Virus record (IMG/VR): IMGVR_UViG_3300020439_000067
Span: 1 to 26,087 of that record
From: a virus
Strand: one strand, 5' to 3'
DNA: 26,087 bases
Position 1 is the stretch's first letter. Every line of letters starts with the position of its first letter. Shown here one piece after another: positions 170-24,500 of this stretch. The position numbers were made by a program, and so were the translations under genes. The notes beneath the pieces were generated by a model. It saw nothing but the letters and a program-made list of their open reading frames with translations. It was not told the origin of the DNA and ran no database searches.

Positions 170-173
170 TTCT

Positions 174-1355: not shown

Positions 1356-1358
1356 ACG

Positions 1359-1592: not shown

Positions 1593-1593
1593 T

Positions 1594-1878: not shown

Positions 1879-1902
1879 ATTATTTTTAATTTAGCTGTTA
1901 AA

Positions 1903-1910
1903 CAAATATA
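1903..1910 (-). promoter_or_regulatory. Bacteroidetes-type -7 element, TATATTTG
   Basis: Read on the minus strand this is an exact match to TAnnTTTG, placed 25 bases before the ATG of the acidic gene at 1878. I find no convincing TTG/TTTG -33 partner at the usual 19-21 base spacing, so the promoter is only half supported. The intergenic gap is just 52 bases and divides oppositely oriented genes. Confidence 0.4.
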
Positions 1911-1930
1911 ATTTAAAATCTAAGGCGCCG

Positions 1931-2461
1931 ATGAAAGCTTCCAGATCTTTACCACCAATTATTTATTCACAGCATATGGCCGCAGCTCAACTCTGGAGGG
2001 ACATTATTGATGAATACCAAATAAAAACCAACCGGGAGCGCCGAAATGTTAGGGTGCGTCAAGCTTTTGCGGTAGCCTTGACAAACGAGACGAATCTCAC
2101 CTATGCTATTATCGGCTCGGTCATGAATAAAGATCACTCTACCGTTGTCCACTGCCGCAGATGCCACGAATCAAATATGTTGTATGACGACGAATATCCG
2201 GGGGTATATGATTTAATGACAAATAGAATAACTGAGATGGTCGTAGAGCACAGCGAAAAAACTATAGATACGGCCAAGAGAAAAAATTTCTTCTCTGGAA
2301 AGACCATCGACAACTATGTCGCATCGATAGAGCGCAAGTATCAAAGAAAGATTGAGCACCTCGAGCTGGGGAATAAGATGTTGGCGAAGTCCTTAAAAGA
2401 CATGCAGTCAAGATATGATAAGCTAGAGAGTGAATACTCTAGGATAAAAAACCTATTGTAA
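1931..2461 (+). CDS. DnaA domain IV-like protein with C-terminal coiled coil, 176 aa
   Basis: Residues about 38-80 match the DNA-binding domain IV of DnaA: a basic helix RRNVRVRQAFAVALTNETN, then LTYAIIGSVMNKDHSTVVHC, the counterpart of the DnaA signature (IGxxFGRDHSTVxHA), with D68-H69-S70-T71 and H74. In DnaA the DHST turn contacts the DnaA box. There is no AAA+ ATPase domain. Residues about 125-176 are a heptad-rich coiled coil (IERKYQRKIEHLELGNKMLA and on to SEYSRIKNLL), suggesting dimerisation. It could bind the phage origin, repress, or compete with host DnaA. It overlaps the next gene as TAATG, implying coupled expression. Confidence 0.75.
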   Translation: MKASRSLPPIIYSQHMAAAQLWRDIIDEYQIKTNRERRNVRVRQAFAVALTNETNLTYAIIGSVMNKDHSTVVHCRRCHESNMLYDDEYPGVYDLMTNRITEMVVEHSEKTIDTAKRKNFFSGKTIDNYVASIERKYQRKIEHLELGNKMLAKSLKDMQSRYDKLESEYSRIKNLL

Positions 2462-2892
2462 TGCCGCGGAGCCAGGTTCCTAAGTCTAAGATGTTTCGGG
2501 AGTTCTCCAAGCAACCGGAGCGGTATATCAAAAGTAATTATGCGAAGCACATCAAGAATGCCTTCCGAGTTATGTCTGAGAAGCATGAGATTTCGCGCAC
2601 CGAGATGGAGTTTATGCTTTTTGTGTACGACTTAGAGTTCTTTACTATTGACTGGGTGGCTGACCAGATGGGTCTGTCTAGAAAAAAACTTGGCCCCCGG
2701 GTGGTATATCCTTTAGTCAAGAGGGAATATATATACAAGCACTTTGATAAGCTGTCACCAAAGACGGAGCTCGATCAGATGTTCCATGAAAATAAATACA
2801 ATTATCGGGTGAGGTATGCTTTGTCCCAGAGGGGACGTTTGAACGTACAAAGATTCTACCGCAAGCTAGAGGCTCCGGATAGTATCATCTAA
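2461..2892 (+). CDS. Winged-helix-like DNA-binding protein (MarR-like), 143 aa
   Basis: After a basic N-terminus, residues about 45-125 look like a winged helix: ISRTEMEFMLFVYDLEFFTI (first helix), TIDWVADQMGLSRKKLGPRV (helix-turn-helix), YPLVKREYIYKHFDKL, then a strand with NYRVRYALSQRGRLNVQRFY. The ending 'YxLSxRGxxxVxRFY' is typical of MarR-type proteins. It is likely a transcriptional regulator, perhaps of the nearby control region, working with the DnaA-like product with which it shares an overlapping TAATG junction. The last 8 bases overlap the convergent gene on the other strand. No ligand site or acidic effector domain is evident. Confidence 0.6.
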   Translation: MPRSQVPKSKMFREFSKQPERYIKSNYAKHIKNAFRVMSEKHEISRTEMEFMLFVYDLEFFTIDWVADQMGLSRKKLGPRVVYPLVKREYIYKHFDKLSPKTELDQMFHENKYNYRVRYALSQRGRLNVQRFYRKLEAPDSII

Positions 2893-3127
2893 ATCTTTTT
2901 ACAATCTTTTGGATGTCGGCAGAGTACCTGGCGAATTGCTTGCCCTTCTTGGTGGCTTTTCTTTTCTGCCTCATGGCCTTAGCATAGAGCCCCGCCTTTT
3001 TTAGGGCGGCTACTGCCGCTGCAGGAAAATACGGCTCCCCGGTTTTTGAGCTTTTCTTACCGCTGGCTGTTTTCCAATTTTGCTTGGTCCAGTTCTTTAA
3101 CGACTGTTGTGGTTTTTTGAGGGCCAT
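2885..3127 (-). CDS. Small basic protein, C-terminal half of a DUF5872-like family, 80 aa
   Basis: A Lys/Arg/Ala-rich product starting MALKKPQQSLKNWTKQNWKT, with SGKKSSKTGEPYFPAAAVAA, then RKATKKGKQFARYS and a basic tail. This resembles a segment I recall from single-chain proteins of giant viruses and marine phages ('SLKxWxxExWxTxSGKxS...GERYLP...KKGKQF'), labelled DUF5872 from memory. Those proteins carry a second upstream block that is encoded here by the preceding gene. The start shares a base with the stop of that gene (TAATG), so translation by termination-reinitiation is likely. Role unknown; the charge suggests nucleic-acid or virion-DNA association. Confidence 0.65.
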   Translation of the reverse strand: MALKKPQQSLKNWTKQNWKTASGKKSSKTGEPYFPAAAVAALKKAGLYAKAMRQKRKATKKGKQFARYSADIQKIVKRFR

Positions 3128-3393
3128 TAGTTCTTATACCCTCCCCCCGCGGCTTTATATCGTTTGGCTAGCATTTGAGCTTTTCTAGCAGACCACTGAC
3201 CAGCGCGCCCACCTTTAGTGCCACGCATGATCGCCTGGAATAACCGCTTCCTCAACCCGGGTTTTGTATAGTTACCAGATTCATTGACACGCGATTTTAC
3301 CTTACCCCCTTTTTTATAGGAAGCAGGTAACTTACCAGCCTTCTTCTTCTTAGCAATTGCTATTGCTGCTTGTTGTGCTCTACTCTTCGCCAT
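3127..3393 (-). CDS. Small basic protein, N-terminal half of a DUF5872-like family, 88 aa
   Basis: The product begins MAKSRAQQAAIAIAKKKKAG and carries the block TKPGLRKRLFQAIMRGTKGG followed by GQWSARKAQMLAKRYKAAGG. The motif KGGRxGQWSARKAQ...YxxxGGGYK is one I associate with DUF5872-like proteins (number from memory). I chose ATG at 3393 rather than an in-frame ATG at 3429, because the longer form adds a hydrophobic stretch with no counterpart and a TATCTTTG promoter element sits in that interval, only 5 bases before this ATG. A transcript from it would be nearly leaderless. Very basic, no Cys, no membrane segment; function unknown. Confidence 0.65.
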   Translation of the reverse strand: MAKSRAQQAAIAIAKKKKAGKLPASYKKGGKVKSRVNESGNYTKPGLRKRLFQAIMRGTKGGRAGQWSARKAQMLAKRYKAAGGGYKN

Positions 3394-3398
3394 CAAGG

Positions 3399-3406
3399 CA
3401 AAGATA
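3399..3406 (-). promoter_or_regulatory. Bacteroidetes-type -7 element, TATCTTTG
   Basis: Exact match to TAnnTTTG on the minus strand, separated from the ATG at 3393 by only 5 bases (CCTTG). If used, the transcript would have almost no leader. A TTG lies upstream but at too short a spacing to be a normal -33 element, so support is from the -7 box alone. Confidence 0.4.
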
Positions 3407-3487
3407 CTAAATAAACAAAATAATATCACCGGACTCTACTTCATCGTAGAACTCGCAGATACAGTAATCAGAATTACATTCACACAT
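3407..3487 (-). CDS. Possible Cys-rich miniprotein, 26 aa
   Basis: A 26-codon ORF with product beginning MCECNSDYCICEFYDEVESG and ending DIILFI, stop TAG at 3407. It has four Cys in the first 11 residues (C2, C4, C9, C11), a spacing that could bind zinc, and an acidic second half. A purine-rich GGGGGGAG lies 3 bases before the ATG, the best Shine-Dalgarno-like sequence in the region and unusual for this genome. The ORF ends 14 bases before the start of the basic gene at 3393 and could be a leader peptide. So short an ORF can arise by chance. Confidence 0.35.
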   Translation of the reverse strand: MCECNSDYCICEFYDEVESGDIILFI

Positions 3488-3546
3488 GATCTCCCCCCAT
3501 TAATAATTAAACACAGCACACCCTTCTTACACTCCTAAGTTAGCAT

Positions 3547-3591
3547 CTCGGGTTTTTAGCGGTTAAAGACCGGGGTCGTCAGAACCCCGAG
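3547..3591. promoter_or_regulatory. Two mutually exclusive hairpins (switch-like)
   Basis: Fold A pairs CTCGGGTT (3547-3554) with AACCCCGAG (3583-3591, one bulged C) and encloses a small hairpin CGGT-TAAAG-ACCG (3560-3572). Fold B pairs CGGGGT (3571-3576) with ACCCCG (3584-3589) around the loop CGTCAGA. The two folds use the same 3' arm, so only one can form at a time. No T-tract follows on either strand, so a simple intrinsic terminator is unlikely. Confidence 0.4.
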
Positions 3592-3863
3592 TCATTATCT
3601 CTCGCAAGCTTAGTGCGAAGTTACACATTTTATTTTATAAAATCAAGCCCCTGCGGCATTTTGTATTACCGAATAATACACGCCAGACTTAAAGCAATAC
3701 TTCAACTTGGCACGGTTAAAATACCCTCAAACAATTTATCAGTAATACGGATCGTGGGGATTATACGTAGTATGACGACGCTGGCAAACAAAACCGGAAA
3801 CGGATTCTGCAACCCAGCCCCCTACATATACACTCAGAACTCGCAAAACTTTCAGCGTTTTAC

Positions 3864-3946
3864 CTACTAACAATCTGAGGTTCAGACTACTAACTATCGA
3901 TACCTATAGCGGTGCATTAACTGAATCCTGCTAACATGTTCAGACT
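3864..3946. repeat. Short repeat cluster, CTACTAAC and TTCAGACT
   Basis: CTACTAAC occurs at 3864-3871 and 3887-3894, flanking a perfect five-base inverted repeat TCTGA-GGT-TCAGA (3874-3886). TTCAGACT occurs at 3881-3888 and again at 3939-3946, and TGAGG accompanies both copies. These could be protein-binding iterons, but the units are short and the count small. Confidence 0.3.
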
Positions 3947-4131
3947 GAGGCAATTACTGAAATGTAACGCAGTCCCCTAGTTACATCTGACAATCCCCAC
4001 CCCCTTTATAGTATGAATAACTCAAATCCACCCTAGGGCACAAACTACCACATTGTCCCACATGCCTTTATGGTACTGCCTTACGGGCGATATTGCACTC
4101 TAAGTATTTAATACCTTTCTCACCCCGCCCC

Positions 4132-4163
4132 TTGACTCGTATCCAATATTGGCTATACATTTG
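4132..4163 (+). promoter_or_regulatory. Bacteroidetes promoter, TTG-N21-TACATTTG, for the early region
   Basis: A TTG at 4132-4134 and an exact TAnnTTTG match, TACATTTG, at 4156-4163 are separated by 21 bases, the spacing expected for the Bacteroidetes housekeeping sigma factor. Transcription would begin near 4170, leaving an A-rich leader of about 20 bases before the ATG at 4189. It heads the long plus-strand run, so it is probably the main early promoter. This is the best promoter in the window. Confidence 0.65.
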
Positions 4164-4188
4164 TGCTTGTAATCAAAAACATAACAAT

Positions 4189-4455
4189 ATGTCTTACAAC
4201 GGATACTCCTCTTACGAGGCATGGAATATCGCTCTATGGATTGATAATACATACGGGCTTCAAAAGACCTTCAACGACCTAGTTGAACTTGCGAATGACG
4301 AAAAAATCACGGGCGCAAAAGGTAACATTGTCACTATAATGATGTCGGAGTGTTTCCGCAAATTCCGCGGGGAATGTAACCCCGATGGAGTCATGGTCAC
4401 ACGAGAGAGAATTGAGGAATACGTTAGCATGTTCCTTGAGTATGAGGGTGCTTAA
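4189..4455 (+). CDS. Small phage/plasmid protein with YNG-YE-WN motif, 88 aa
   Basis: The product begins MSYNGYSSYEAWNIALWIDN. This matches a widespread small family in phages and plasmids with an N-terminal YNGWxNYETWNVxLW motif (DUF7249, number from memory); no function is established to my knowledge. I chose ATG at 4189 because the family motif starts here and the promoter at 4132-4163 lies just upstream; the longer open frame from 4093 would run through that promoter. Residues 20-88 look helical and include a basic ECFRKFRGE. It is the first gene of the early plus-strand unit, a usual place for host-takeover proteins. Confidence 0.75.
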   Translation: MSYNGYSSYEAWNIALWIDNTYGLQKTFNDLVELANDEKITGAKGNIVTIMMSECFRKFRGECNPDGVMVTRERIEEYVSMFLEYEGA

Positions 4456-4459
4456 TCAA

Positions 4460-4834
4460 ATGACTATGAATCAGTACGACTTTGACACAATGCAAAGCAT
4501 CTTGACAGATTATCACGATGCTATGAATGACAAGAGTCCCGACTTGACTTATGTCCCTAAGATGTATGTCAACAAAGACTATTGGGTAACTAAGATATCT
4601 GTACCTCTAGAGGATATGGTAGATATCAACATTGAACTTGATGACAGACCCGATGAACAATATTGGGGATGCATTCAGTATGACGAGATGTCAAAGACGG
4701 GTATAGACTTTTGTGTGTACCAACCCGAAGAGGTTGGCGATACCCCAAGATTATCTTTCTATTTAGTTGTCGATGGTAATATCGACACCACTGAAGAGTT
4801 TGAAGTAGAGTGTCAGATTATAAATAACTTTTAA
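4460..4834 (+). CDS. Acidic hypothetical protein, 124 aa
   Basis: An unrecognised acidic protein starting MTMNQYDFDTMQSILTDYHD. The second half alternates strands and turns (WVTKISVPLEDMVDINIELD, RLSFYLVVDG, EFEVECQIINNF), suggesting a mostly beta fold. I took the ATG at 4460, five bases after the stop of the previous gene; ATGs at 4442 and 4466 are possible. It has no membrane segment and only two Cys. The plus-strand neighbours are similarly small and acidic, typical of early phage genes with host-directed roles, but nothing identifies a partner. Confidence 0.65.
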   Translation: MTMNQYDFDTMQSILTDYHDAMNDKSPDLTYVPKMYVNKDYWVTKISVPLEDMVDINIELDDRPDEQYWGCIQYDEMSKTGIDFCVYQPEEVGDTPRLSFYLVVDGNIDTTEEFEVECQIINNF

Positions 4835-4846
4835 AACTACATCAGT

Positions 4847-5068
4847 ATGGAAAAACTAGAATTGACTTATGCAAGCATAGCCAAAGAAATCCAATGTGAC
4901 TATTTTGGAGAGGGTGACGGCAAGGAAATAACAAGCAGACTGAATTACCTAATCGGGCAACTTGAAGCGTCTGGCCAATACATCCCCGACGCCGGTGCGG
5001 GCACTGAACTAGAATATGCTCTTGGAGATATTGAAAACCTATTGAACACGATACTTTTTAAACTTTAA
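4847..5068 (+). CDS. Acidic hypothetical protein, 73 aa
   Basis: The product starts MEKLELTYASIAKEIQCDYF and ends IENLLNTILFKL; it looks helical at both ends with a Gly-rich turn in the middle (PDAGAGTELE). It is acidic overall, with one Cys and no catalytic motif. The gene follows the previous one by 12 bases with the A-rich leader expected for this genome. Function unknown. Confidence 0.65.
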   Translation: MEKLELTYASIAKEIQCDYFGEGDGKEITSRLNYLIGQLEASGQYIPDAGAGTELEYALGDIENLLNTILFKL

Positions 5069-9245: not shown

Positions 9246-9554
9246 ATGAAGTATTATATAGTTTATAATCCCGACACCGAGCAGTTTGACCTGCGCGACA
9301 AAGAACTATGCAAGACGATATTCTCGTCTTCATCACGAGGAAGATGCGAAGCTCGCCTCGAAGAGATTGTAAGAGAAAGTTACAAGCCCGACATGGAGAA
9401 GATGTACTACTTGATGGATAGGATGGGTGAGACTTTACAATGTATCAAAGAGTGGGAAGGACAGCGCAAAGGTGTGCAAGATTTCGATCTCACAAGAGCA
9501 CTACATTTGCACGCTCAAATGCAAATCGCTCTTGGTTTACCGCTCAAATATTAA
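9246..9554 (+). CDS. Hypothetical protein, 102 aa
   Basis: The product begins MKYYIVYNPDTEQFDLRDKE, which suggests a beta hairpin, then becomes helical with many Arg and Glu (GRCEARLEEIVRES) and ends HAQMQIALGLPLKY. No motif recognised. It lies 2 bases after the preceding gene and directly before the ERF gene; the end of its coding sequence contains a TTG that could be the -33 element of that gene's promoter. Confidence 0.6.
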   Translation: MKYYIVYNPDTEQFDLRDKELCKTIFSSSSRGRCEARLEEIVRESYKPDMEKMYYLMDRMGETLQCIKEWEGQRKGVQDFDLTRALHLHAQMQIALGLPLKY

Positions 9555-9562
9555 TAACTTAG
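9532..9562 (+). promoter_or_regulatory. Near-consensus promoter before the ERF gene, TTG-N20-TAACTTAG
   Basis: TTG at 9532-9534, a 20-base spacer, then TAACTTAG (9555-9562), one mismatch from TAnnTTTG. Transcription would start near 9569, just before the A-rich leader of the ERF gene at 9583. The same octamer TAACTTAG occurs on the minus strand at 3535-3542 in the control region. Confidence 0.35.
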
Positions 9563-9582
9563 CACTAATTAAATTCAATCTT

Positions 9583-10143
9583 ATGAGTAAATTAAACTCC
9601 GCACTCGTAGCAGTGCAGTCAGCGTTGAAGGCGCCTAAGGGTCAGTTCAACAAGTTCGGTAACTACAACTACCGTAGCGCCGAAGATATCCTAGAGGCAG
9701 TCAAGCCTCTACTCGCAAAGAATGGTTTGTCTATGACCATATCTGATGAAGTGAAAGAGCTTGCCGGAATACTATTCATTGAGGCCGTGGTTCAAGTAAC
9801 TGATGGCGATTCCATAGCAGCAGTTTCAGCGCAAGCAGGTATCGACCCTAACCGAAAGGGGATGGACATAGCTCAGTGCTTTGGAGCTTCAAGTTCATAC
9901 GCTAGAAAGTATGCACTCAACGGCATGTTCTTGATAGACGATACTAAAGATGCAGACGCAACCAACACGCACGGCAAGAGAACGTCTTCACCTGCGGCAA
10001 AGGATGGCGAGTGGTTTACTAAAGCGGTAGACTACATCAAGAAAAGCAAGGACAAAAACCAAGCGTTTGAAATGGTCCTTAGCAAGTACAAAGACAGCGC
10101 CAGCGAAAAGCAGATTGAAGCACTCAAAAAGTTTGTGCGATAA
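9583..10143 (+). CDS. erf: ERF-family single-strand annealing recombinase, 186 aa
   Basis: ERF proteins anneal complementary single strands and support phage recombination and genome circularisation. Here GQFNKFGNYNYRSAEDILEA (about residues 18-37) followed by VKPLLAKNGL is the typical ERF N-terminus, and GMDIAQCFGASSSYARKYAL (about 90-109) with LIDDTKDAD is its conserved core. The C-terminal third is basic and less conserved, as is usual. I chose ATG at 9583 because the family start aligns there and the frame upstream overlaps another gene. It is followed, sharing a base, by an exonuclease gene, the classical pairing of annealing protein and 5'-3' exonuclease, then an SSB-like gene. Confidence 0.85.
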   Translation: MSKLNSALVAVQSALKAPKGQFNKFGNYNYRSAEDILEAVKPLLAKNGLSMTISDEVKELAGILFIEAVVQVTDGDSIAAVSAQAGIDPNRKGMDIAQCFGASSSYARKYALNGMFLIDDTKDADATNTHGKRTSSPAAKDGEWFTKAVDYIKKSKDKNQAFEMVLSKYKDSASEKQIEALKKFVR

Positions 10144-10910
10144 TGGAGTTCGCCACCTTACTACAAGAAAAGGTAGGCAAAGGATACTTGTCTTACAGCA
10201 GTATAAAGCATGCTCTTAGCGACATAAGGCTATGGGAAATGTATATGGCTGGGCAACTGAAGAGAGAGTCGCAGGCTCTAAGCTTTGGAAGCGTGTACGA
10301 CACACTATTATTTGAACCCGCCGAATATACTAACCGCTTCTTTACCTTTGACGACAAAGAGATTTGTGATGAAATCGGAGGCAAGAACCCACGGGCCACA
10401 AAGAAATACAAAGAGTGGCGCGATGATCTAATAAGCCAAGCAGAGAAAGAAGATAAGCGGATAGTTTCTGAAGATGATTACATCATGGCAATCGACATGA
10501 TATCTAGGCTCGATGATTGTGGTCTGCTTGACAGCCACCTCAGCGGAGAAGTGCAGCTAGAGTTTAACAGCTGGATTGAAGATGTTCCGGTCCGTGGTTT
10601 TTTGGACTGCAAGATTCCTAACGTAATCATTGATAGCAAAAGCACCCGTAGTATCGGAGGCTTTAAGCGTGATGTGTTTTCTTTTGGATACGACATACAA
10701 GCATACATCTACACTTCGGTATTTCCGGACAATGAGTTTGCTTGGGTTGCACAAGAGAAAGCATACCCGTATCTTCCTGCACTAATTCATGCCAGCGAGG
10801 ATACACTTCGTAGTGGAGAGTTTAAGTTTTGGAAAGCGGTTGATACTATCAAGAACCACTTTGCAATTGACCGACCCGCCACTACCTTTTATAAAGAATT
10901 CTATGTTTAA
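10143..10910 (+). CDS. PD-(D/E)XK exonuclease, RecE/YqaJ type, 255 aa
   Basis: The nuclease core is clear: LSYSSIKHALSDIRLWEMYM at the N-terminus is the usual SxSxLK helix, RGFLDC places D155, IIDSKST places D164 and K166, and YDIQAYIY gives Q186 and Y189, the QxxxY motif of RecB/RecE/Cas4-like nucleases. About 255 residues suits a phage exonuclease of the DUF3799 type. Such enzymes resect double-stranded ends to give the single strands used by the annealing protein. The start shares a base with the ERF stop (TAATG), pointing to coupled synthesis of the two partners. Confidence 0.8.
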   Translation: MEFATLLQEKVGKGYLSYSSIKHALSDIRLWEMYMAGQLKRESQALSFGSVYDTLLFEPAEYTNRFFTFDDKEICDEIGGKNPRATKKYKEWRDDLISQAEKEDKRIVSEDDYIMAIDMISRLDDCGLLDSHLSGEVQLEFNSWIEDVPVRGFLDCKIPNVIIDSKSTRSIGGFKRDVFSFGYDIQAYIYTSVFPDNEFAWVAQEKAYPYLPALIHASEDTLRSGEFKFWKAVDTIKNHFAIDRPATTFYKEFYV

Positions 10911-10925
10911 TTTAATATCTATATC

Positions 10926-11234
10926 ATGAACCAAAACGAGAATGTTTTAGCAGGTTACTTCAACGAGATGAAAGTTTGGAGTGACACGGACAGCAAGTTT
11001 GTCCCATTTACCACCGGAGTTAGTGGAGAATTTAGCTTCACCTTAGAGGAGCTTGAGGATGTGAAGAAGTTCGCAACCCATAACGCAAAGACACCACGAG
11101 TTTACTTTGAGCTCAAGATGTCTCGCAAGACCGGGCGTCCTTACGCTATCGTAAAAGACCCGAGCACCTGGGGGAAAAAGCAAGACAATAAATCAGCACA
11201 AACTGCTGAGGCGTCTGATGATCTCCCGTTCTAA
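10926..11234 (+). CDS. SSB-like protein with acidic C-terminal tip, 102 aa
   Basis: The product ends SDDLPF, matching the acidic tip (DDDIPF) by which bacterial single-strand-binding proteins recruit partners. A disordered, polar linker (GKKQDNKSAQTAEA) precedes it, as in SSB. The first 80 residues contain strands NVLAGYFNEMKVW, EFSFTLEEL and RVYFELKMSRKTGRPYAIVK that could form an OB fold, though sequence similarity to SSB itself is not evident. Position after the annealing protein and exonuclease and before the primase-helicase supports a single-strand-binding role. Confidence 0.55.
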   Translation: MNQNENVLAGYFNEMKVWSDTDSKFVPFTTGVSGEFSFTLEELEDVKKFATHNAKTPRVYFELKMSRKTGRPYAIVKDPSTWGKKQDNKSAQTAEASDDLPF

Positions 11235-11556
11235 GATAGAAGATACCTTGTACCTTTTGTTATGTTTTGCGTGGGGGATGGAGAGAGTCAGCTCTGTCCC
11301 CCCAATATACAGCGCCAAAAGGGCAGGCAAGGAAGTGTCGTTTACCATAGACATCATAGAACATGACGACAAAACAATAACGCTCAGTAAAAAAGGAGAA
11401 TCTGATTACCGGATAATCATAATACCTAACAAAGTTGGAGACAACCTAATCTTGCTAGAAAGCAAAGATGTTAGGGGCAGAGATGCCATGACCTTTCAAG
11501 AGCTTGCACCACTGATTAAGTACAAAGAAAGAATCGAATTTAAAGATGGAGTATAA
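11218..11556 (+). CDS. Hypothetical beta-rich protein, 112 aa
   Basis: From about residue 35 the product alternates hydrophobic strands (KEVSFTIDIIEHDDKTITLS, YRIIIIPNKVGDNLILLE), suggesting a small beta-barrel. The start is uncertain. ATG at 11218 overlaps the SSB-like gene by 17 bases and gives a hydrophobic N-terminus LYLLLCFAWG; ATG at 11278 follows GTGGGGG and gives a 92-residue protein beginning MERVSSVPPIYSAKRAGKE. The shorter form looks more natural for a soluble protein, the longer fits the gene packing. No family recognised; it lies within the replication block. Confidence 0.55.
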   Translation: MISRSKIEDTLYLLLCFAWGMERVSSVPPIYSAKRAGKEVSFTIDIIEHDDKTITLSKKGESDYRIIIIPNKVGDNLILLESKDVRGRDAMTFQELAPLIKYKERIEFKDGV

Positions 11557-11896
11557 TTTAGAAGACACCCCCGAATACTACATAGGAGAGCATAAGGGTA
11601 TTGAGGCTATGGATGTGGTCTTAGATTTTCAGAGGAATAATTATAATATAGGGACAGCACTTACCTACTTGATGAGGGCTGGGAACAAGCCCGATAATCC
11701 AATGAAACAAGACATCATAAAAGCAATAGTACACCTAAAAAAAGAACTCGACCTTATCGACTATGAAAGTAACAATATATCAATCAATAACAGACACCAA
11801 GAATCCATTTCATATCCCTATTGGTACAGCACTCGAACGGATAAAGCACGGGAAGAGCAAGGACATAATAGAGAAGATAAGGGACACGGGGAATAA
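11546..11896 (+). CDS. DUF3310-family protein with unusual overlapping tail, 116 aa
   Basis: Residues about 10-72 match DUF3310 of phages: EYYIGEHKGIEAMDVVLDFQ, then NIGTALTYLMRAGNKPDNPM, then QDIIKAIVHLKKELDL (compare WxLxxxxGNAIKYLxRxGxKxxxxxDLxKAxxYLxR). The family is often found next to replication genes and sometimes labelled a nucleotide kinase-like or replication-associated protein; the function is not known. Family members usually end soon after the last helix. Here the frame continues for about 44 polar residues, all of which overlap the start of the primase-helicase gene, so the tail may be the consequence of a lost stop codon. Confidence 0.7.
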   Translation: MEYNLEDTPEYYIGEHKGIEAMDVVLDFQRNNYNIGTALTYLMRAGNKPDNPMKQDIIKAIVHLKKELDLIDYESNNISINNRHQESISYPYWYSTRTDKAREEQGHNREDKGHGE

Positions 11897-13598
11897 AGAT
11901 TATAAGATATCCCTGCCAGCGGTATTGTTTAGTGGTGTGTTTGAAGAGCGCAAAGACGCGGGCATAAAGCAACACAGCGGGTTCTTGGTCCTAGACATTG
12001 ACGACCTCAGCGATCCTGCTGAAACAAAAAACACTTTGTCTCTAGACTCATACACTTATGCATGCTGGATATCACCTAGCGGTAAGGGGGTTAAATCACT
12101 AGTAAGAATCAACGACAGCGCCCGTCATCGGGAACACTTCTTTGCCATAGAGAAATACTACCAAAAGAATTACTTGATTGATGTTGACCCCACCGGCAAG
12201 AATATATCAAGAGCCTGCTACGAAAGCTATGACCCCGAGCTGTATCTAAACGAAGACAGCGAAGTCTTTACCGCTTTTGTTAGTGAAGAGAAAAAAGAAA
12301 CCAAGCCCAAGCAAGAGGTAGTAAAGCCTCAAGAGTATACTGACTACAACAAGCTGAACATTGCAGCGTCAATGATTCGTAATGCTGCGGACGGCGAGAA
12401 GCACCATGCCCTTTACAATGCCTCGAGATTATGTGGTGGCTATATCGCAGGCGGGAGGATGCTTGAGGATGAAGCAATTCGGGTGTTGGAATATGAGATA
12501 TCTCTAAGGGACATCAAAGATTTCGAGCATGCAAAGAGGACTATAAAAGATGGCATCAACGAGGGCAAGGGCATGCCTATCCACGAGGTGCTTACCTTTG
12601 AGAAAACCGAGCAAAGAAAGCAGCGCATAAAGGATGGGGACATGAAGTTCATAGCCCCTACTGACGATGACTTTAAATGGATTGAAGACTTTGCTAACGG
12701 CAAGATCGAGCTGGGCCTCACAACGGGGAGCGAAACACTAAACAAATTCTTTAGATACAAGAGAGAGTTTACTATACTCAACGGGCACAGCAACGTGGGT
12801 AAGACAACATTCTGCTTGTTCCTAATGGCTAACGCCAGCATACAGCATGATTGGAGATGGTGTGTGTATAGCTCAGAGAACACTACAGCCAGCACGAAGA
12901 TGAGGCTGATGGAGTTTGTTACCGATAGGAAAGTACATCGGATGAACAACAAGGAGCTAGCAAGCGCATACAGCTGGGTGAACAAACACTTCATCTTCTT
13001 TAGCAATAGAGACATGTATTCTTTCCACGACATTCTAGCTTTCACTGACAAGGTGCGTGAGAGCCAGCACATAGATGCCCTATTCATCGACCCCTACAAC
13101 TCACTAAAGATTGAGATGGGTCAGCACTCTAAGATAGGTGTTCATGAGTACCACTACGAAGCGGCATCAGAGCTATTAAATTACAGCGTCAATAATGAAC
13201 TCGCAATTTGGTTAAACACTCACGCTGTAACTGAGGCGCAACGACGCAAGGACCCGGAAGGATATCCTATCGCGCCTTATGCTGAGGACAGTGAGCACGG
13301 TGGCAAGTGGGTCAACCGCTGTTCCTGCTTCCTCACGATACATAGAAAGGTCCAGCACCACGACCCTATAGTACGCAAGACAACGGAGCTGCATGTGCGG
13401 AAGGTTAGGATTGTTGAAACCGGAGGTGCACCTACCCCTCTTTACGAGCCCATTGAATTCCAAATGAACATCACCAACACCGGATTCTATTGCACGAAGG
13501 ATAACGGCAAAAAAATATTCAAGCCTATCAGCGAGGAATTCGAAACGTACATTCCTCCAAGTAGCAGTGAGGAAGCATTTGATTTATCAGACATATGA
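11763..13598 (+). CDS. Primase-helicase: BT4734/PrimPol-like N-terminus fused to DnaB-type helicase, 611 aa
   Basis: The N-terminal 150 residues match BT4734/VirE_N proteins, thought to belong to the archaeo-eukaryotic primase group: ITDTKNPFHIPIGTALERIK, FSGVFEERKD, HSGFLVLDIDDL with D78 and D80, SPSGKGVKSLVRI (104-116), and DVDPTGKNISRACY. Residues about 195-280 are a helical primase C-terminal-like linker. Residues 310-560 are a RecA-fold motor: Walker A GHSNVGKTT with K347, Walker B ALFIDPYN with D443, and LNTHA with H487, as in DnaB/Twinkle helicases. It therefore probably opens the fork and makes primers. The start overlaps the DUF3310 gene by 134 bases; the family motif begins immediately, so this start is secure. 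Confidence 0.85.
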   Translation: MKVTIYQSITDTKNPFHIPIGTALERIKHGKSKDIIEKIRDTGNKDYKISLPAVLFSGVFEERKDAGIKQHSGFLVLDIDDLSDPAETKNTLSLDSYTYACWISPSGKGVKSLVRINDSARHREHFFAIEKYYQKNYLIDVDPTGKNISRACYESYDPELYLNEDSEVFTAFVSEEKKETKPKQEVVKPQEYTDYNKLNIAASMIRNAADGEKHHALYNASRLCGGYIAGGRMLEDEAIRVLEYEISLRDIKDFEHAKRTIKDGINEGKGMPIHEVLTFEKTEQRKQRIKDGDMKFIAPTDDDFKWIEDFANGKIELGLTTGSETLNKFFRYKREFTILNGHSNVGKTTFCLFLMANASIQHDWRWCVYSSENTTASTKMRLMEFVTDRKVHRMNNKELASAYSWVNKHFIFFSNRDMYSFHDILAFTDKVRESQHIDALFIDPYNSLKIEMGQHSKIGVHEYHYEAASELLNYSVNNELAIWLNTHAVTEAQRRKDPEGYPIAPYAEDSEHGGKWVNRCSCFLTIHRKVQHHDPIVRKTTELHVRKVRIVETGGAPTPLYEPIEFQMNITNTGFYCTKDNGKKIFKPISEEFETYIPPSSSEEAFDLSDI

Positions 13599-14047
13599 GA
13601 AGGAAAAAGAGAACGGGCGCAGTAAAGAATGTCCGCAAAGCAACATATGACGGCATAACATTTCAGTCTAGACTAGAGCTTTATTGTTACAAGAAGCTGA
13701 AGTCTGCAAAGATTTCTTTTAAATATGAGGGGCAAACCTTTGAGGTGCTCGAACCTTTTAGACACGAGGGGTTCTATGGAAAGAAAGCATCTAGAGGGTT
13801 CAGCTTGAAAGAAAACAAACTGATCAGAGCGGTCACTTATACACCAGACTTTGTCTCTCACGATCATGGGTTTGTCATAGAAACTAAGGGGTTCGTGCCA
13901 TCGAACCACAGCTTTACGCTTAGATTCAAGATGTTTCTTTATTGGCTGAAGAACAATTCCATGGGGGGATATGATGTTTACATACCCCGAAACCAGAAGG
14001 AAGTAGACGAGGTTATACAACACATTGTTAATAAGATATCGAGTTAA
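13595..14047 (+). CDS. PD-(D/E)XK endonuclease (DUF1064/T7 endonuclease I-like), 150 aa
   Basis: The product carries ITFQSRLELYCYKKLKSAKI with E28, YTPDFVS with D85, and FVIETKGF with E96 and K98, the E...PD...ExK layout of PD-(D/E)XK endonucleases such as DUF1064 proteins and T7 endonuclease I. The basic N-terminus MRRKKRTGAVKNVRKA should bind DNA. A junction-resolving or debranching role in recombination and packaging is inferred. Its ATG overlaps the helicase stop (ATGA, 13595-13598), so it is coupled to the replication gene. Length is close to that of T7 gp3 (149 residues). Confidence 0.75.
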   Translation: MRRKKRTGAVKNVRKATYDGITFQSRLELYCYKKLKSAKISFKYEGQTFEVLEPFRHEGFYGKKASRGFSLKENKLIRAVTYTPDFVSHDHGFVIETKGFVPSNHSFTLRFKMFLYWLKNNSMGGYDVYIPRNQKEVDEVIQHIVNKISS

Positions 14048-15574: not shown

Positions 15575-18500
15575 TTAGTTATCTTCTAAATCCAAAAAAT
15601 AATTTCTAACAATACCGTCTCTATATGCTCTCCAAGGATAGACACCGCCGGTATAAGTTCCGCGAGAGTGTCTGTTGTATATGGACTTGAGCGCAGATAT
15701 TTTCTGAGAGTTGTTCATCTTTTGATAAGCGGGGCTAGTAACAAGTCTTTTTACATCTTTATACCGAGCTTGACCAAATGATTTCATCATAGCATGAGCG
15801 TCCTTAGGCATTATAGATATGTAGTTAGGCTCATTAACATTAAGCCCATAGTAAGCAGACTCCTGCTTGGTAAGTAATATTTTTAGTTTACCTACCGCTG
15901 AAGGGTATCCCGGGATTACATCAGTATCTCCCGTCTCTTTAAACAAGTTGTATATGTCGATCTTAACCGGGTCTTTTGAGCTTATTCTAGATTTGAATAC
16001 TCCAAAAGTATTGTACAACCAAGGGTACTCTTTGTCGCTATCAAAGAAAAGAGAACCTCCGCCTTCTGGAGTTTGAGTTATAGACTCACCCCAAATGTTT
16101 ACTCTAGGCACAACGGACTCTCCTAGACCAAAGAAGTTGAAGGTCTTATCTCGGAGTATGTTTTCCATTGAGTTGTCAATACCCGGGTTCGGATCTCTAT
16201 AGTCGGGCAAGTACTCGCGTCCAGAGCGGTAGAATGCACTGAGTGAGTTAGGCAATACAACTGAGAATCCTGCACGCATGATGTTGTCTAAGTACTTGGT
16301 TAGCTGTCTCTCATTCGGGTCAGCCAACAACTTAATAACCCCATCAATACCAGTCAAGAACGACTGGTCCATCATAGACCCCAAGACCCCGGGGACAACG
16401 CCCGTGATATCGGAAATGAAGTCCATAAAGTTATCAGAGCGGTTCAGTACCTTGGCGTCCATTTGAGCGTCACGCATCACAGCCTTAATACCTACAGCTT
16501 GAGCAGCTATAACAGCACCGCCCAGACCAAGCTTCTGATAGTTAAACCAAACATCATCTGCTTGAAGCGTTGGGTCTTCACCATTAATCAGCCTCTTGAC
16601 ACCGCTAATATTTATAGAGTTCGGAGGAGCAGTACTATACTTCATGTCTCTTTCCTTCTTTCCGTCCGCATCTATAGGGGTTGTGATCAACCCATCCTCC
16701 ATCAACTTTTGAGTTGTTTTGTAAAGCAACCAGCTGATAAATGATTTGGCAAGAAGCTCAGAAAGCTCTCGGTCAGAAACCTTTTTCCCGCCTCTAATAG
16801 TTTTCTTTAGAACTAACGATAGCAATGGCATAACCGGATGAGCAAGCTGTATACTCTGAGACAAGATATTCGCTGGTGTTTTTATATAAGGGATGTGCAT
16901 ACGCACCATAACACGGAAAGCGTTTTCCAAAAACGTACTTCTCTCGCCAAGAATATCAGATGCTTTAGCTATAGACTTATTTATAGCTGTGGCAAATTGG
17001 TTATCCTCTTGGAAGGTAACTCTTAGTCCTGCCTTTTCAGCTCTAGCCTTATACTCTTCATTAGGATATTTTAAGAATCTGTTTAGCTCTTCACCCTTCA
17101 GACCCAAAGACTTTCCTATACGATGAAGCTCATAGCCCTCCATTAATCTATAGAAAGGCATATCACCAAACGCAAGCAGTCTAAACATGATATTAGCGGG
17201 ACCACCGCCAACAGCCTCTAGGAATTTCTTAGCACGGAAATTAATCTCGTTTAACTTTGTGCCGTTCTTGACTGAATCCGGGAGCCTATCGCTGTTAGCT
17301 AGAATCATACCGAATGCTTTGATAGGAGCCAGCTGAAGCTGCATGTTGTATTCAAACTTATCATTAGCAATCGCCCTACCAATAGCACTTAGATAAGCTT
17401 CTCGAGCGCCAACTCCAAATTGCTTAGCCGCGTGTATTGCTGCTGGTATAGAAGGTGGCAGTGTAGCAAGAGAAGGGTCGACTTCTCTGCCCATAGATTT
17501 CTTAATGCCTCTGATAAGAACCTCAGCACCATAGCCCAATGTCTTGTCAGCCAACATTATAGGAAGTGTAGCAAGGTTAGCGGTAATGTTAACCAACTGA
17601 GAAACCGGGGTAAGAAGATTCCCTTGGATTATCAACCCAATGAGCCTGCCCCAAGTCGTAGCAAAGTTTGTATTGAAGTCGTTAAGTTTACTGGTAGCTT
17701 CAGAAACTCTGTTTCTAGCATCTTCCAGTCTGTCTTCAATAGCTGGTATCTTGTTAGTCTCTGAGGTTTCTGACAGCTCCTTAATCAAAGACTGAACGTC
17801 TTGTTGCGCGTCGAACAACTCATCAACAATACCCCCCATGGTTTCATACTCAGAATCAGATAGAGTTGTGCCGTTAGCCTCGTAGATATTGTCTACTAGA
17901 TCTTTCATGCCTGCCGGAGTTTGCCCTTTAACCTCAGCAAACTGGCGGAGCAACTGCCCCACAGCAGTACCCGTCTCAAAGAAACGCTTCAAGACAGCTC
18001 TGTATTCTTTTGTCTTCCCTTGATTCTGTAATCTTTTTAAATATTCAAGTGTCGCTAGCACACGGAAGTCTCCACCAGCTAAAGAGCTCATCGCGTCGTT
18101 GATTACAGAAGGATTATCGCCATCAGAAATAGCGATATCTTTCATCTCAGCAAGCAACTCCTCAATAGACATTGTCTCTAGCTCAGATTTAATCTGATCG
18201 ATCTTCTGAGGCTCATAGAACCTAGACATATCTTCAGCTAAATCCTTTCTGATTGACGCCTCAAATGGGACGTTAGGGTCTAAGCTCTTGAACATCTTGC
18301 GAGCATGACGTCTTTCTTTTGTCTCTAGCCTAGCTCGATCACCGCTATCTACATACCATTCTGGGTAGAAGATACCGCCGGCTCTCTCAAATACTTGATC
18401 TTGAGCTTCATCGAAAGAAATGTTTCCGTCAGCATACTCTTGCCATATAGCACGAACGTCAGACTTGTTTTTCTTCTGAGCCTTAAATCCAGGCGTGAAT

Positions 18501-21500
18501 AAAGTCCTAACGGCTTCCCAAGTAATAGACTGCATCTCTCTTGCGAGCAAGCCTTTTTGTTCTGCAGCATTACGATAAGCCTCAGCGTAAGCAAAGTATA
18601 CACCTTTGATTCCAAGGTTAGAGCTACCAGCTTTAACATCGATAGCCGCAGTACCACCACCAAAGTTATGGAAGACCTCAGCGTCTGAGCCCGATAGAGG
18701 GAGAAGTTCTGCAGCAGCTACAGCATGAGTGTCTATGGTTACGTCTCCCGTGTCTGAGTTCGGGTCGTTGATGTTGTTAAAGAATGATCTCACTTTGTGC
18801 TGATCGCCTACTTTAGAATCAATGTTTTCCATCGTGCCATCGATAGCGATAGAGGTAGCAGAGGAAATCTCAGCATAAGAACCCCAGGCCATTGTCTTCA
18901 TCTCTCCATTAGCCTTCTTGCCATATCCAATGCGCTCGCCAATAGGGCTGACGATGTGATAGTTGCGGTCCTCAAACATCTCGTTATATGTACGCACGAA
19001 CATCGCAGACTCCAAAGCAGCGTTATCGCCTTCAATTATTTCTCTTAGAGACTTGCCCACCATGCCTTGAAGCACAGCCTTTCTTTTTAAGTATGATTTG
19101 TAAGCCTCTTTAGTGGCCTTTCTTTTAAAGTCTTGCTGGTTTAGAATTTTATTCTTGACCTTCCGCATATTTCTCAGAGCGGTATTATACATAGACTTGC
19201 TAAACTCAGTGTCTTTCTGATTGCTCATCACGCGCATCACTGACTCGCCAAGGGCGATGTTCTGATACCAATCCTTCTGAGGAGAAAGCGCAGCCAAGAT
19301 ACCCGCAGCCTGCTCTTGAGTATAGCCATAGCGAACAGCTAGGTCTTGAGCGGTAAGGTTTGCACCTACGTACCAAAGCTTTGAGTACTTCCTTACATCT
19401 TCGCTAAACGAATCATGAAGTTTGATTAAGTTTCTAGTAGCTCGGTCAACAAAAGTTTTGTAGATTTCATCTGCTCTGGTAATCTCTGCATCAGTGGGCT
19501 CGCGTTTGATGTCTAATTTTTTAGCATCCTTAATGTCCGACATGAAAGTGTGTGTAGACAAAATATAAGCACCACGAACATATACCTTAGGAGCAAACTC
19601 TCTGGTATACTCCATTGTAATTTGTCGAGAGCCGTCAAAGTTAGTGGTATTGTCAGCTGACGCAGAAGTGTTTCTAGCTGGTGATACTCTGCTTCCAGCC
19701 CCAACCTTATCTACAGCTTGTGCTACAATCTTATCATCTAGACGCGCGCGATTGCCGTTCTGCATGTAGTCAAGCTTATCTTTAAGAGACTGCAATATCT
19801 CTGCCTCTTGCTTAGCTCTTTGCTCAAATATCCCTTGGAATCTAGTCTGAACGCTTTCGGGTTCAAACACCGGAGTCTCAAATCTAGAAATCATATCCTT
19901 GAGTCCAGCCTCGTCTATGTTTTTAGTAAGCTCTTCTGCTATGACTCCAGCAGAAAAAGGTATAGATGAATTGTCTCTATATGCGGCGAACAAACTGGTT
20001 CCGTCAACATAAGGAATCTGTATGCCATATCCGGACTGCGTCACTAAATCTCTAGCCGGATCTACTTCGATAGAGATAGGATTCACATCGGGCAGCCTTA
20101 GGTCTTCACGAAGATCATATACATCTTTAGGCTTATGCAAAACATCATACTGTGTTATTATCGCCTCGTCTTTTATTGTGGTATATTGAGGGATAAACTT
20201 GTTCTTTATTCCCTCGCTGACTTCGTTCTTAAAGAAAAGATTTCTAGCAATGGTACTTTCATTACCCATTAACATGTGGTTTCTTTGCTGACCGTCTATA
20301 TCAAACACCTCGAACATCGGGAATCCGTTAATGGTAGTTTGAGTTTTTGAGAAACCCACATTAAAGTCATGAAGATCTGGAGCAGCAATCCCGAGCTTTG
20401 CCATTGAACCAGTCATCTGCCAAATGTTCATCGCATACCCTACGAGATCATCAATGGTCATTCTACCATCGCGCTCTGCTCTACCAATAGGATTATCAGC
20501 AGATCTTGTAAATCCATCTTTTTCAAGGATATCGTTGAGTGCTCTAGAGGCCTCTTCGTCTTGCATCACTGCTAACAAATGCAAAGCAACATTTTCGGTT
20601 TTTGCTATATCTATAGCGGTTTCGTAGATGTCTCCTGGACTTGGACCAATAGTCTCTACTAGACTAAATGACTTGTCGTAAACATCATGAATAGCTCTAA
20701 CAATAAGCCTATAAATATCTTGAGCAGTAACATCTACGCCTCTATCAAACTTATCTGTTTTAATATCTACGTAATCCTTTGTAACAAACACGTGAGAGCC
20801 AGTGCCCATAAACGTATTAGCAGCATCTAAGAACATCGCGCCCATCCCATGATACTTAGCAAGCCCAGGGAGCTTTCCATTATACTTGTTTAAGTATATG
20901 GCCGATATCTGAGACTCTCTTAAACTCCTTGTTTGTTTAACTACTGTTTTGCCGTCAAGTGTTTCAACCTCATAGGCGACTCCATAAGCACCATCACCGA
21001 GCCTTCTAACCTTAGAGATAGCCATGCCTTGAGACAGCATATACTCTTCAAGCCTAGCTCTATTAGCGGTAGTTGGAGTGCTCTTTTGTTCTGCTGATTG
21101 AGCGCTTTCAACACGGTACTCATTTATAATTTCTTGTATTTTTTCATTAACCCGCCCTCGATAATCTATAAAATCGTCGGCGTTTACAGCGAGTCTAAAA
21201 GCCTTGGATGAGGTTGACTCATCAACAAAGAAAAGCCTATTGTGCATTACCCGCATGAAGCTATTGTCTTGCTCAGAGTGCATAAGATTAACAACACCCA
21301 GGGTGTCTAGTATTTTTCTTATGGCATCTGAACCCGGCTCACCAACAGACTCAGCATCCGCTATAGATACACCTTCGGCGTCAAGGATAGACTTTATCAT
21401 TGTTGGTGTGATAATATCCAATCCCGCCTGCTCGTAAAAATATTTTGCTGAAAACTTGTTCTCGCTAGGACCATCTGAATAATAGACATCTGTTGATGAC

Positions 21501-24500
21501 TCGGAGCGAATGTTTCTTGATGCAGTCTTAATGTTGTCTCGATAAATTTTAACAACACGGGCTTGATGCTCGGTAGGCTCTAAATCGTCGGATCGCTTTA
21601 GCTCATTTACAAGTTGGCCGTCTATATCAAACAACTTGTACTGAGAATACTTCTGAAACTTATCAGTGCTTTGAGGCTGAGCAAATCCAATGTTGCCGTA
21701 GTGCACATCTGGAAAAATAAAACCAATCTTCTCTAAACTCTCACTCATTTGATAAGCATTATCTAAATAAGCTAATGCAAGATCAAACATCTCGAGTTTT
21801 GTAAATGGTATTGTAGAATCATATACCTCAGAATAATCATCTGGGAAATTAATTTCTGTGAATGTTCGCGCACCGCTTTCTATTATGTCTGCTAGATAAG
21901 TATACATAGATTCACTTACAACGCCAGGAATGGTACTGTCTGATCCAATATATTCTTTTAAAAAATTGTTTATTATTTCCCCAATTTCAAGAGGCGTGAC
22001 AGTGCTCCCTTCTTCAGCAGTCATAATTGTCGGTACAAACTCTTTAATCTGATAAATCAAAGGCTCTGTCTTGCCGGTAGCAGAAACAGCAACATCGTAA
22101 TACTCTGCAAGGCCGGGGAGGTTTCCGTTAAACTCACGCACATACACAGCGGAAGCTATTGTTTCTGTAACAGATTGAGCCTCTTTAACTACCACGTTGT
22201 TACCGCTAGCGTCTTTAACCAAGAATGCATATCCAAAAGCTCCAGACCCTAGGACCTTCATCTCTGATAGGTCTAGGTTTCTATCTAAGGCAAAGTCTAC
22301 CAGTCGAGCTCTGTCTCCATCATTAGCATCGCGCTCTTGACGCATTGCCTTGCCCGGATTATTGTTCGGGTTTTCTTTGATTCGTTTAGCGATATCAAGG
22401 ATATATATCTTCTGACCGCTACGATATCCCTGCGTTACTCTTTCTACTAAGTTTACGAGCTCATTCTCGCTCTTGAGTTTGAAACTAGAGAGCTTGCCAG
22501 ATAATATTTTATTTATAGCACGTCTAGACTTGCCCTTAAATGTTGCATCAAGCTGATTTAAGTTGTCGTTTATGTCTGCTATAATACCAACGATCACCTC
22601 TTCCTCCGCAACAGCTATGGCGTGTTGTTCGGAATGCCCTCTTTCTATATAAAATGTAACGTAGTCATTGAATCGCTCATCCATTTTTTGACGAAGAGAT
22701 TCATTATTGATGCTTTGTAAATCGTTGTATAAAGAAGTGCGAACCCTTGGCTCTAGAACCATGATATTACGCAGTCCTGCGTGAGCAAATTCCTCGCGGA
22801 TCGCCGCAGTAGTTGCGTTGAACATAACGTGAATAGCTGGTCCACCTTCTCTTTCGTGCTCATAGAACGCTTCATAAGGGCCTCCAGTAGCACGCTGTAA
22901 AGACTGTTTTGTTCTATGAATGATAACACGGGGGGCTTCAGTGTACTTATCTGTAAACGCATTGTATGCGCTGTTAAGCATCTTTGCTATACGAGGGGTA
23001 ACTCCGTGACGTCTTGGATTTACCGCACCACCACGAATCTCTATAGAATTATCTATCTCCTCAGAAGCTTCTCTTGCTTGTTCTAGAGATGACGCTGCCT
23101 CCTCCGCGGCGCTTGGCGCTACTCGCTGGGCTGGCCTAGGAGCTGGCTCAACACTTGGTTGCGCTTCTGTTGCGGCAGGTTCATCAACCTCTGGTATAGA
23201 TCGTTCTGCTGTTTGCTCTGCTGCGAACTCTCGTTCGGCTTGCTCAATGGCTTGTCTTGCTGTTTCATTGTTCTCAATTATTTGGTTAACTTTTGCTCTA
23301 TCTGATGGGTTTTCTCTAGCTGATAATAATATTTGATATGCAGCATCCATAGCATCTTGCCCGTATAGCTCAACTACTGCACCGCTTTCGTCTTTCATTT
23401 GCACACGAACACCGCGCTCTGCCTCTGCAGAAATAGCGGTTGGAGTTTCTAATGGTACAAACTGACCCCCACCAAATATAGATATCGCGTTTACCCCAAC
23501 CTCTGGGTCAATGCTAAGTCTTGTGCCTTCTGCTATGTTCGGGTTATCTGGTTTTTGGTACAAGAAAGTACCGTCTTCTTGAACCGCTAATGTCTGACGT
23601 TCAGCAATCGCAGGCTCAAACATTCTAATAGTAGATGGGTCCACCTCGCTGCGCTGCCCAAGTTCTACTTTTTCTGTTTCAGTCTCAACCACCAATGTAG
23701 GATTCTCTGGAGTACCCTCAAGGCGGAGAGTACCTTGTACCTCTGTCCCGTCTATAGGTCTTTCTGCGATAACCTCAGTGCCATCTTCAAGTGTATTGAT
23801 AGTTATAGGGTCTACTGTAGAAGCGCCTTCTGCTACGGAGCGAGCTTCAGTAGGAACGACTGGTGTAGCCAACTGGTCCATGTCAATTGGGTCAATAGCT
23901 GGGGCAACTTCCTCAACTTCAAAGACACCAAAATTATCCATTAGGGTTACAATCTCAGCACCTAATCTTGATTTAAGTTTTGTATCTGTGGCCTCCCGCA
24001 TTTCTTGTTGGAGGGAAAATATTTTTTGACTCTTGTCAATTAAATCTAATTGTTGATCTTGAGTCAGTTCTTCGAAAGCTCTAATGTTTGCATTGAGCAT
24101 TTCGTATTTTTTATTTCTAAACTCTTTTAGGTCGTCTTTTAGGGTTTGCTTAGCTTCTTTGCCCCTTACTTTTTTAAGCTGGTCTTTAGTCTCTTGTATC
24201 TTTTGTTCTACTACTTGTACTTGACCATCACCCATAAGTGAAGCAGCGGTTGTTATACTACTTCCGTTGGCTTTGTTTTTTTGCGCCCACTGAACATAGG
24301 TTCTCTCTGAAGTAGGTGTCATAAGCTCGTTATAGCGCGAGCTTACAGCTCGAGTAGCTGCCGCAGGAGCTGCCATCACTGGCCCCCCGAGCGCTTCCAT
24401 AACAATATCAAGACCCGAGGTGACTTCCCCTTCTTCAGCAATCTGACCGGCAGTTTCACCTAATGCACCACCAGTAGCGTCAACTAATATTTCTGCTCCT

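Follow-up and report, generated by a model that had tools for sequence, protein, structure and literature searches.

A BT4734-type primase domain joined to a DnaB-type helicase core in a predicted phage primase-helicase

Domain architecture of the 611-residue protein

The window analyzed here is a 26,087-base stretch of a virus record (IMG/VR IMGVR_UViG_3300020439_000067). At positions 11763–13598 of its plus strand it holds an open frame of 611 amino acids, in which a BT4734-type archaeo-eukaryotic primase (AEP) domain is predicted to be fused to a DnaB-type helicase. The reverse strand across the same interval, in the single frame read, is interrupted by many stops. An original prediction, made from the sequence alone, had placed a BT4734 domain and a DnaB-type helicase together in this frame, and both Pfam and the fold of predicted models confirmed the pairing. 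Pfam identified BT4734-like_N (PF08800) at residues 48–161 (E 2.4e-23, 83.2 bits against a cut-off of 22.4) and DnaB_C (PF03796) at residues 318–448 (E 7.1e-7, 29.3 bits against a cut-off of 27, a narrow pass). The protein also matched PHROG 18375 ('DNA primase/helicase') at E 1.3e-124, and the best matches to phrog_18375 and phrog_28855 fall in different halves of the chain. In NCBIfam, PrimPol_Db (CRISPR-associated primase-polymerase type B) matched residues 74–191 at E 3.9e-12 with 46 bits, far below its equivalog cut-off of 200. A model of the full-length protein had a mean predicted local distance difference test score (pLDDT) of 85.3 and a predicted template modeling score (pTM) of 0.54, and the relative placing of the domains in it is therefore unreliable. 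Profiles and models indicate a layout of AEP domain, helical middle domain and DnaB-type helicase core.

The AEP catalytic domain, which is BT4734-like, is predicted to span residues 1–175 (11763–12287, plus strand, as are all features of the protein given below). Motif I, D78-x-D80, would supply metal ligands (11994–12002), motif II reads S104-P-S-G-x-G-x-K111 (12072–12095), and motif III comprises D142, N147 and R150 (12186–12212), with a putative third metal ligand and a putative phosphate contact. Each of D78, D80, S104, G107, G109, K111, D142, N147 and R150 is invariant in 51 of 51 aligned phage members of the family. Because these rows, at 49–59% identity to the query, come mostly from one group, they are not independent, and 27 BT4734 proteins from bacterial genomes provide the more distant check. 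D78, D80, S104, G109 and D142 are present in all 27 of these, R150 in 18 and K111 in 14. The residues singled out by the original prediction (D78, D80, K347, D443 and H487) are likewise all present in 51 of 51 rows, to which the third invariant acid, D142, and the motif II sequence SPSGxGxK are additions. According to the published definition of AEP motifs, motif I has the form hhhDhD/E and motif III carries an acid (PMC5862659), and we assign D142 to motif III provisionally, by its position. Residues described in the corresponding roles in S-2L PrimPol are E85, D87, H118, D146 and R157 (PMC8065100), and by position D142 and R150, for example, may pair with D146 and R157.

To the N-terminal 280 residues modeled alone, prediction gave a pLDDT of 88.6 and a pTM of 0.71, with blocks of 88–96 across residues 1–170. 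The top PDB match of this model in VIA-align was the AEP domain of S-2L PrimPol (Z 8.4, root-mean-square deviation 3.8 Å over 129 residues), which Foldseek matched at E 0.021 with a probability of 0.98. AEP enzymes make up 19 of the 50 rows that VIA-align listed (S-2L, RepB', PrimPolC, PriS, LigD polymerase, CAPP and NrS-1), a list from which unlisted families are not thereby excluded. Those besides S-2L range from Z 7.0 to 5.1, and for two of them (3h20 and 6jop) the root-mean-square deviation is useless. The original prediction had staked itself on an AEP-like N-terminal fold, and with the S-2L AEP domain as best match of the predicted model it was not refuted.

Residues 190–275 (12330–12587) form four to five helices in the predicted models. 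Pfam gave no convincing match in this middle domain, PriCT-1 and PriCT-2 included; the equivalent part of a distant relative, L009, matched PriCT_1 at E 1.5e-8. The middle domain may thus be a diverged PriCT domain.

The DnaB-type helicase core, of RecA fold, is predicted at residues 301–593 (12663–13541). It contains a Walker A motif, GHSNVGKTT (K347; 12783–12809), the end of a Walker B strand, I442-D443 (13086–13091), and H487 at the sensor position (13221–13223), and K347, D443 and H487 are each found in 51 of 51 rows. The sensor position is a histidine in T7 gp4 and a glutamine in DnaB. K547-x-R549 (13401–13409) is a candidate arginine-finger pair: K547 is invariant and R549 is present in 50 of 51 rows, L009 having a lysine at the latter position, as do the Maribacter phage Panino, the Cellulophaga phage phi38:1 and elemovirus in their aligned rows. 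By analogy with DnaB and T7 gp4, these two residues would stand where ring helicases have their arginine finger. When the full-length model was compared with the PDB by Foldseek, DnaB chains ranked first (4esv_K, E 1.7e-14), and the predicted core fold matched the ATPase domain of G40P and the helicase of T7 gp4, with TMt values of 0.78 and 0.76, respectively. Pfam found no TOPRIM match in the protein at E values up to 10. A VirE (VapE) helicase was also considered as the fusion partner and rejected, being absent from the Pfam matches, in which the partner is DnaB_C.

Conservation of the fusion among phage relatives

A first scan of IMG/VR yielded 9 loci. With a six-sequence alignment as query, a second scan matched at least 600 stretches, at least 589 of them relatives, of which the best 80 were kept. 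The domain order in relatives, a comparison for which the original prediction had called, is AEP followed by DnaB in all 80 of these loci: a single frame spans query residue 3 or lower to residue 569 or higher in each, two of the frames being open at the locus end. Compared with L004, L005, L006 and L008, which are 85–90% identical, each of the three parts of the protein (AEP, middle and helicase) has a nonsynonymous divergence (dN) of 0.05–0.13, with synonymous sites close to saturation or saturated. These values indicate strong purifying selection on the gene. Low dN against saturated synonymous sites, together with an architecture shared by every kept locus, argues that the fusion is not a product of chance. 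Within this phage group the fusion is standard and no oddity.

The protein matched 72 of 50,697 annotated phage records, three of the 72 being from cyanophages (two Planktothrix, one Synechococcus), and in Panino alone did one place cover at least 80% of the query. Close full-length relatives are therefore few among sequenced phages, and the wide spread of the family lies in IMG/VR contigs. At the nucleotide level the gene had no match in the phage collection, and 8 records of the plasmid collection matched the protein, none covering 80%. A 55,547-base record, G001, encodes a protein (L003) that is 100% identical to the one studied here.

The Panino protein (WZE63563.1) has a BT4734-type N-terminus and a DnaB-like C-terminus in the same order, with 32% identity over residues 1–558, and its gene follows the same order of Erf, exonuclease, single-stranded DNA-binding protein (SSB) and primase/helicase. 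Panino differs in that it also encodes a ribonucleotide reductase and an annotated DNA polymerase and has a replication initiation protein just upstream, whereas Pfam detected no such family in G001. Its protein and PHROG 18375 already bear the name 'DNA primase/helicase'. By predicted structure, Foldseek also aligned the 'DNA primase/helicase/VirE' of Cellulophaga phage phiST (M4SL79) over 655 columns at E 2.2e-29, its domain content being known here by name only; phiST differs in that a dnaE gene is reported from it (PMC8008677). Thus the fusion is an already annotated phage design to which the 611-residue protein adds a member, and it would not surprise a specialist. An AEP joined to a DnaB-family helicase has also been described for PrimQH, which belongs to another AEP family (PMC5862659). 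Our literature search, in which subscription journals and preprints were little covered, returned no study of a BT4734 or VirE N-terminal domain paired with DnaB, a weak negative.

Other systems share parts of this design. Like T7 gp4, the protein would combine a primase and a ring helicase in one chain; its primase is a BT4734-family AEP and lacks the TOPRIM domain. The primase of T7 gp4 consists of a zinc finger plus TOPRIM. The phage AEP primase-polymerases S-2L PrimPol, NrS-1 polymerase and corynephage BFK20 gp43 resemble it in kind, and NrS-1 is reported to carry a ring helicase as well. As described, however, these enzymes belong to other AEP families, and the NrS-1 helicase is of superfamily III rather than DnaB type. 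The CRISPR-associated primase-polymerases of type B (CAPP_B), which are of VirE_N type, share the PrimPol_Db match and the DxD motif; by contrast, CAPP_B proteins are reported to have no fused helicase, and DbCAPP, one of their class, lies among Cas genes (PMC8211822). The same source reports that DbCAPP, a BT4734/VirE_N relative, polymerizes DNA in a DNA-dependent manner and shows primase activity, and that mutating its DxD motif (D86A plus D88A) abolished polymerase activity. In the literature found, this CRISPR-associated relative is the only source of BT4734/VirE_N biochemistry.

Partners of the BT4734 domain and exchange of modules

We surveyed the domain in 198 bacterial genomes of one phylum, Bacteroidota, reached through an Ekhidna metagenome-assembled genome (MAG), that MAG included. 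At E ≤1e-8, PF08800 was found in 26 of the 198 genomes, at 29 places. Twenty-seven of the 29 proteins were scanned for partners, leaving out L151 and L121, the latter on a contig with an AEP-DnaB fusion. At E ≤0.001 the partners were PriCT_2 (11), DUF3987 (4), DUF5906 (4), PriCT_1 (2), VapE/VirE-like (1) and D5_N (1), and none was DnaB_C. The original prediction had given VirE-type or other helicases as the usual fusion partners of the domain, which did not hold in this sample, where a VapE/VirE-like partner occurred in 1 of 27 proteins; since 8 of the 27 frames end at the locus edge, some partners may be missed. Within the sample, by these profile matches, a DnaB partner of the BT4734 domain is seen in phages only.

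Three phages carry other combinations. In phi46:1, annotated PriCT-2 and VirE helicase domains follow the AEP-matching region, and in elemovirus the RecA-like domain is too diverged to pass the Pfam cut-off. The phi38:1 protein, gp016, aligns with the helicase half (residues 293–606, 26.5%) but has a Prim-Pol domain, PF09250, as its primase half and not BT4734. Such combinations indicate that primase and helicase modules are exchanged. The elemovirus protein is annotated 'contains TOPRIM domain' (L013:7986-9845), and a TOPRIM/DnaG reading based on that note was rejected: the note is probably a misannotation, because Pfam finds BT4734-like_N there (E 6.9e-14), and TOPRIM is absent from its matches at E values up to 0.05.

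Search for a phage DNA polymerase

A DNA polymerase was sought in 33 records, namely 30 IMG/VR relatives, Panino, elemovirus (MT497078) and phi38:1. Profile searches recognized no polymerase of family A, B or C in any of the 30 IMG/VR relatives or in elemovirus. DNA_pol_B (PF00136) and Pol III alpha (PF07733) matched 0 of 33 records, and DNA_pol_B_2 (PF03175) exceeded its cut-off in none of the 33, matching weakly once, in phi38:1. DNA_pol_A (PF00476) was found in one record, phi38:1, and phrog_1252 in one, Panino; the Panino polymerase, used as a protein query, likewise matched 1 of 33 records, Panino itself. As a control, the same profiles were run on 14 genomes, with positives in 6 (PF00136), 10 (PF00476), 7 (phrog_1252), 12 (PF07733) and 4 (PF03175, never above its cut-off). 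The large terminase (TerL) was present in 26 of the 33 records and in 23 of the 30 from IMG/VR, so that most are more than replication-gene fragments.

The 41 open reading frames (ORFs) of at least 100 residues in G001 gave the same result. Pfam matched 22 families to them at E ≤0.01, no polymerase among them, and a PHROG scan gave no DNA polymerase among the 25 families listed of 84. Ten larger or unassigned proteins of G001 scanned singly, a set without the 1357-residue protein of the structural block, also yielded no polymerase. In the 41 ORFs from this 55.5-kb record, Pfam detected neither TOPRIM nor DnaG families, which leaves the 611-residue protein as the only primase recognized there; its helicase core is also the only DnaB-type helicase that Pfam recognized. 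The view that this protein stands in place of a TOPRIM primase-helicase is supported by the PF08800 N-terminus and by the lack of a TOPRIM match both in the protein and among the G001 ORFs. Earlier work describes crAss-like phages in which neither a family A nor a family B polymerase is present, in the epsilon group and among a few environmental phages (PMC7886860), so the lack as such has precedent.

Proposed role of the protein

The 611-residue protein is very probably the replicative primase-helicase of a tailed Bacteroidota phage. The C-terminal RecA-fold domains would form a ring like that of DnaB or T7 gp4, which would use NTP hydrolysis through K347, D443, H487 and K547/R549 to travel on single-stranded DNA at the replication fork. 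The N-terminal AEP domain, tethered via the PriCT-like helical domain, would lay primers by two-metal catalysis at D78, D80 and D142, with SPSGxGxK and R150 holding the triphosphate. The result would be a T7-like primosome with another primase, whose primers the host replicase, DNA polymerase III (Pol III), would then extend. Because no phage polymerase was recognized, extension by host Pol III is the likely outcome, if a less secure one than the primase-helicase assignment itself. AEP primers are reported to be used by host Pol III in the case of RepB' of plasmid RSF1010 (PMC4538821).

Several observations weigh against this interpretation. The DnaB_C cut-off is passed by a small margin, and Foldseek taken by itself gave a weak AEP match. 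Z values of 5–7 are also reached in the VIA-align list by unrelated ferredoxin-like folds and by small helical proteins, interspersed with the AEP rows, and the program warns that a Z near 8 can reflect a common arrangement. With unrelated folds at similar Z, the sequence profile and motif pattern outweigh the fold score. A clamp-binding or polymerase-recruiting tail was looked for and none appears to be conserved: no motif is common to the C-termini of the 51 family members and of three named phages, and a few only (for example L009, L082, L086, L104, phi38:1 and elemovirus) end in acidic residues plus phenylalanine, most being without. Finally, the missing polymerase is a result of profile searches, which might overlook a divergent enzyme, for example within an unassigned 3324-residue protein encoded in the window. 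PF00136 missed the annotated DNA polymerase of Panino, which phrog_1252 found, so a divergent polymerase can indeed be missed.

In the strongest alternative, copying of the phage genome would fall to the AEP domain in addition to priming, and together with the DnaB ring as helicase it would form a complete replicase, as in NrS-1 and S-2L. The lack of a recognized family A, B or C polymerase in 30 of 30 IMG/VR relatives and in elemovirus agrees with it, as does G001, whose ends are bridged by the window and whose 41 ORFs hold no polymerase family by Pfam. The VirE_N-type DbCAPP, moreover, is described as an active DNA-dependent DNA polymerase (PMC8211822). On the other side, Panino has a separate polymerase (phrog_1252) beside a similar protein, and there was no indication of a processivity element. 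Many phages, too, rely on host Pol III. Also counting against self-sufficiency, phiST is reported to carry DnaE (PMC8008677). Phage AEP proteins acting as the replicase or part of it have been described for S-2L, NrS-1 and GP55 of lactococcal phage 1706, and on the strength of these precedents we retain the alternative as unlikely, though worth keeping in view. Its wider form, that widespread Bacteroidota phages without a polymerase of their own copy a genome of about 56 kb with a replicase of BT4734 AEP and DnaB ring, is slightly more doubtful still. This phage group seems to have a primase and a helicase and no recognizable polymerase.

The replicative role is also preferred over a place in recombination or repair, in which the protein would act for the Erf/exonuclease module rather than at the main fork. 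Its gene does adjoin those for Erf, an exonuclease and a resolvase-like nuclease. Yet Pfam recognized no other primase and no other DnaB-type helicase in the G001 ORFs scanned, and the preceding gene in Panino and elemovirus is annotated as a replication initiation protein, which makes a recombination role highly improbable. Equally hard to credit is a degenerate or regulatory AEP domain in a protein that is helicase only, with host DnaG priming: motif II does have K111 where S-2L PrimPol has H118, but D78, D80, D142, S104 and K111 are present in 51 of 51 rows under strong purifying selection, and the lysine recurs in 14 of 27 bacterial homologues.

Genomic neighborhood and host

The primase-helicase gene belongs to a replication/recombination module, and Panino and elemovirus have the same kind of module. 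Counts of neighboring genes refer to 43 loci of at least 12 kb. Upstream, all on the plus strand, are an Erf-like single-strand annealing protein (9427–10143; phrog_155, E 1.1e-40; relatives in 27 of 43 loci), an exonuclease VIII-like protein of PDDEXK type (10143–10910; phrog_412, E 9.2e-34; 36 of 43) and a 102-residue protein in the SSB position (10926–11234). The last had no PHROG match and ends in SDDLPF, which resembles the acidic tip of bacterial SSB; its position and this tip suggest an SSB role. A DUF3310/nucleotide-kinase-like ORF (11546–11896, plus strand) overlaps the start of the primase-helicase gene by its final 134 bases, in a different frame. Downstream lies a DUF1064, Holliday-junction-resolvase-like nuclease (13595–14047, plus strand; phrog_190, E 3.3e-10; 27 of 43).

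G001 and the window match mostly at 98.6–99.3%, with three early-gene blocks at 83–91%. Window positions 1–2060 correspond to the last 2,060 bases of G001 and 2662–4183 to its first 1,522, so that 2061–2661 bridges its ends. A closed map of about 56.1 kb would follow, pieced together from two records. Pfam families in G001 include a crAss muzzle protein (PF25731), an SU10-type capsid and Cpn10, and judged by these gene families the phage may be crAss-like or crAss-related. Of the phages compared here, phi38:1 is treated as crAss-like. Cultured relatives grow mostly on Flavobacterium and Cellulophaga, and of five related contigs in MAGs four are from Bacteroidota and the fifth from Maricaulis; the host is therefore most likely a member of the Bacteroidota.

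Rfam gave 0 matches and no tRNAs (0) were found, and direct repeats in window positions 1–5000 amounted to only six two-copy families. A 176-residue protein encoded at 1931–2461 on the plus strand has a helix-turn-helix like that of DnaA domain IV (PF08299, E 3.9e-6, below the cut-off) without an AAA+ match, and relatives of it occur in 13 of 43 loci. A DnaA-box origin near this ORF found no support, with 3 TTWTNCACA matches in the window against 2.45 expected. At 15575–25549 on the minus strand, a single frame of 3324 residues gave only PHROG matches of unknown function (phrog_3842 and phrog_2878), and the corresponding module end in elemovirus is occupied by an approximately 11-kb gene that bears the name structural protein.

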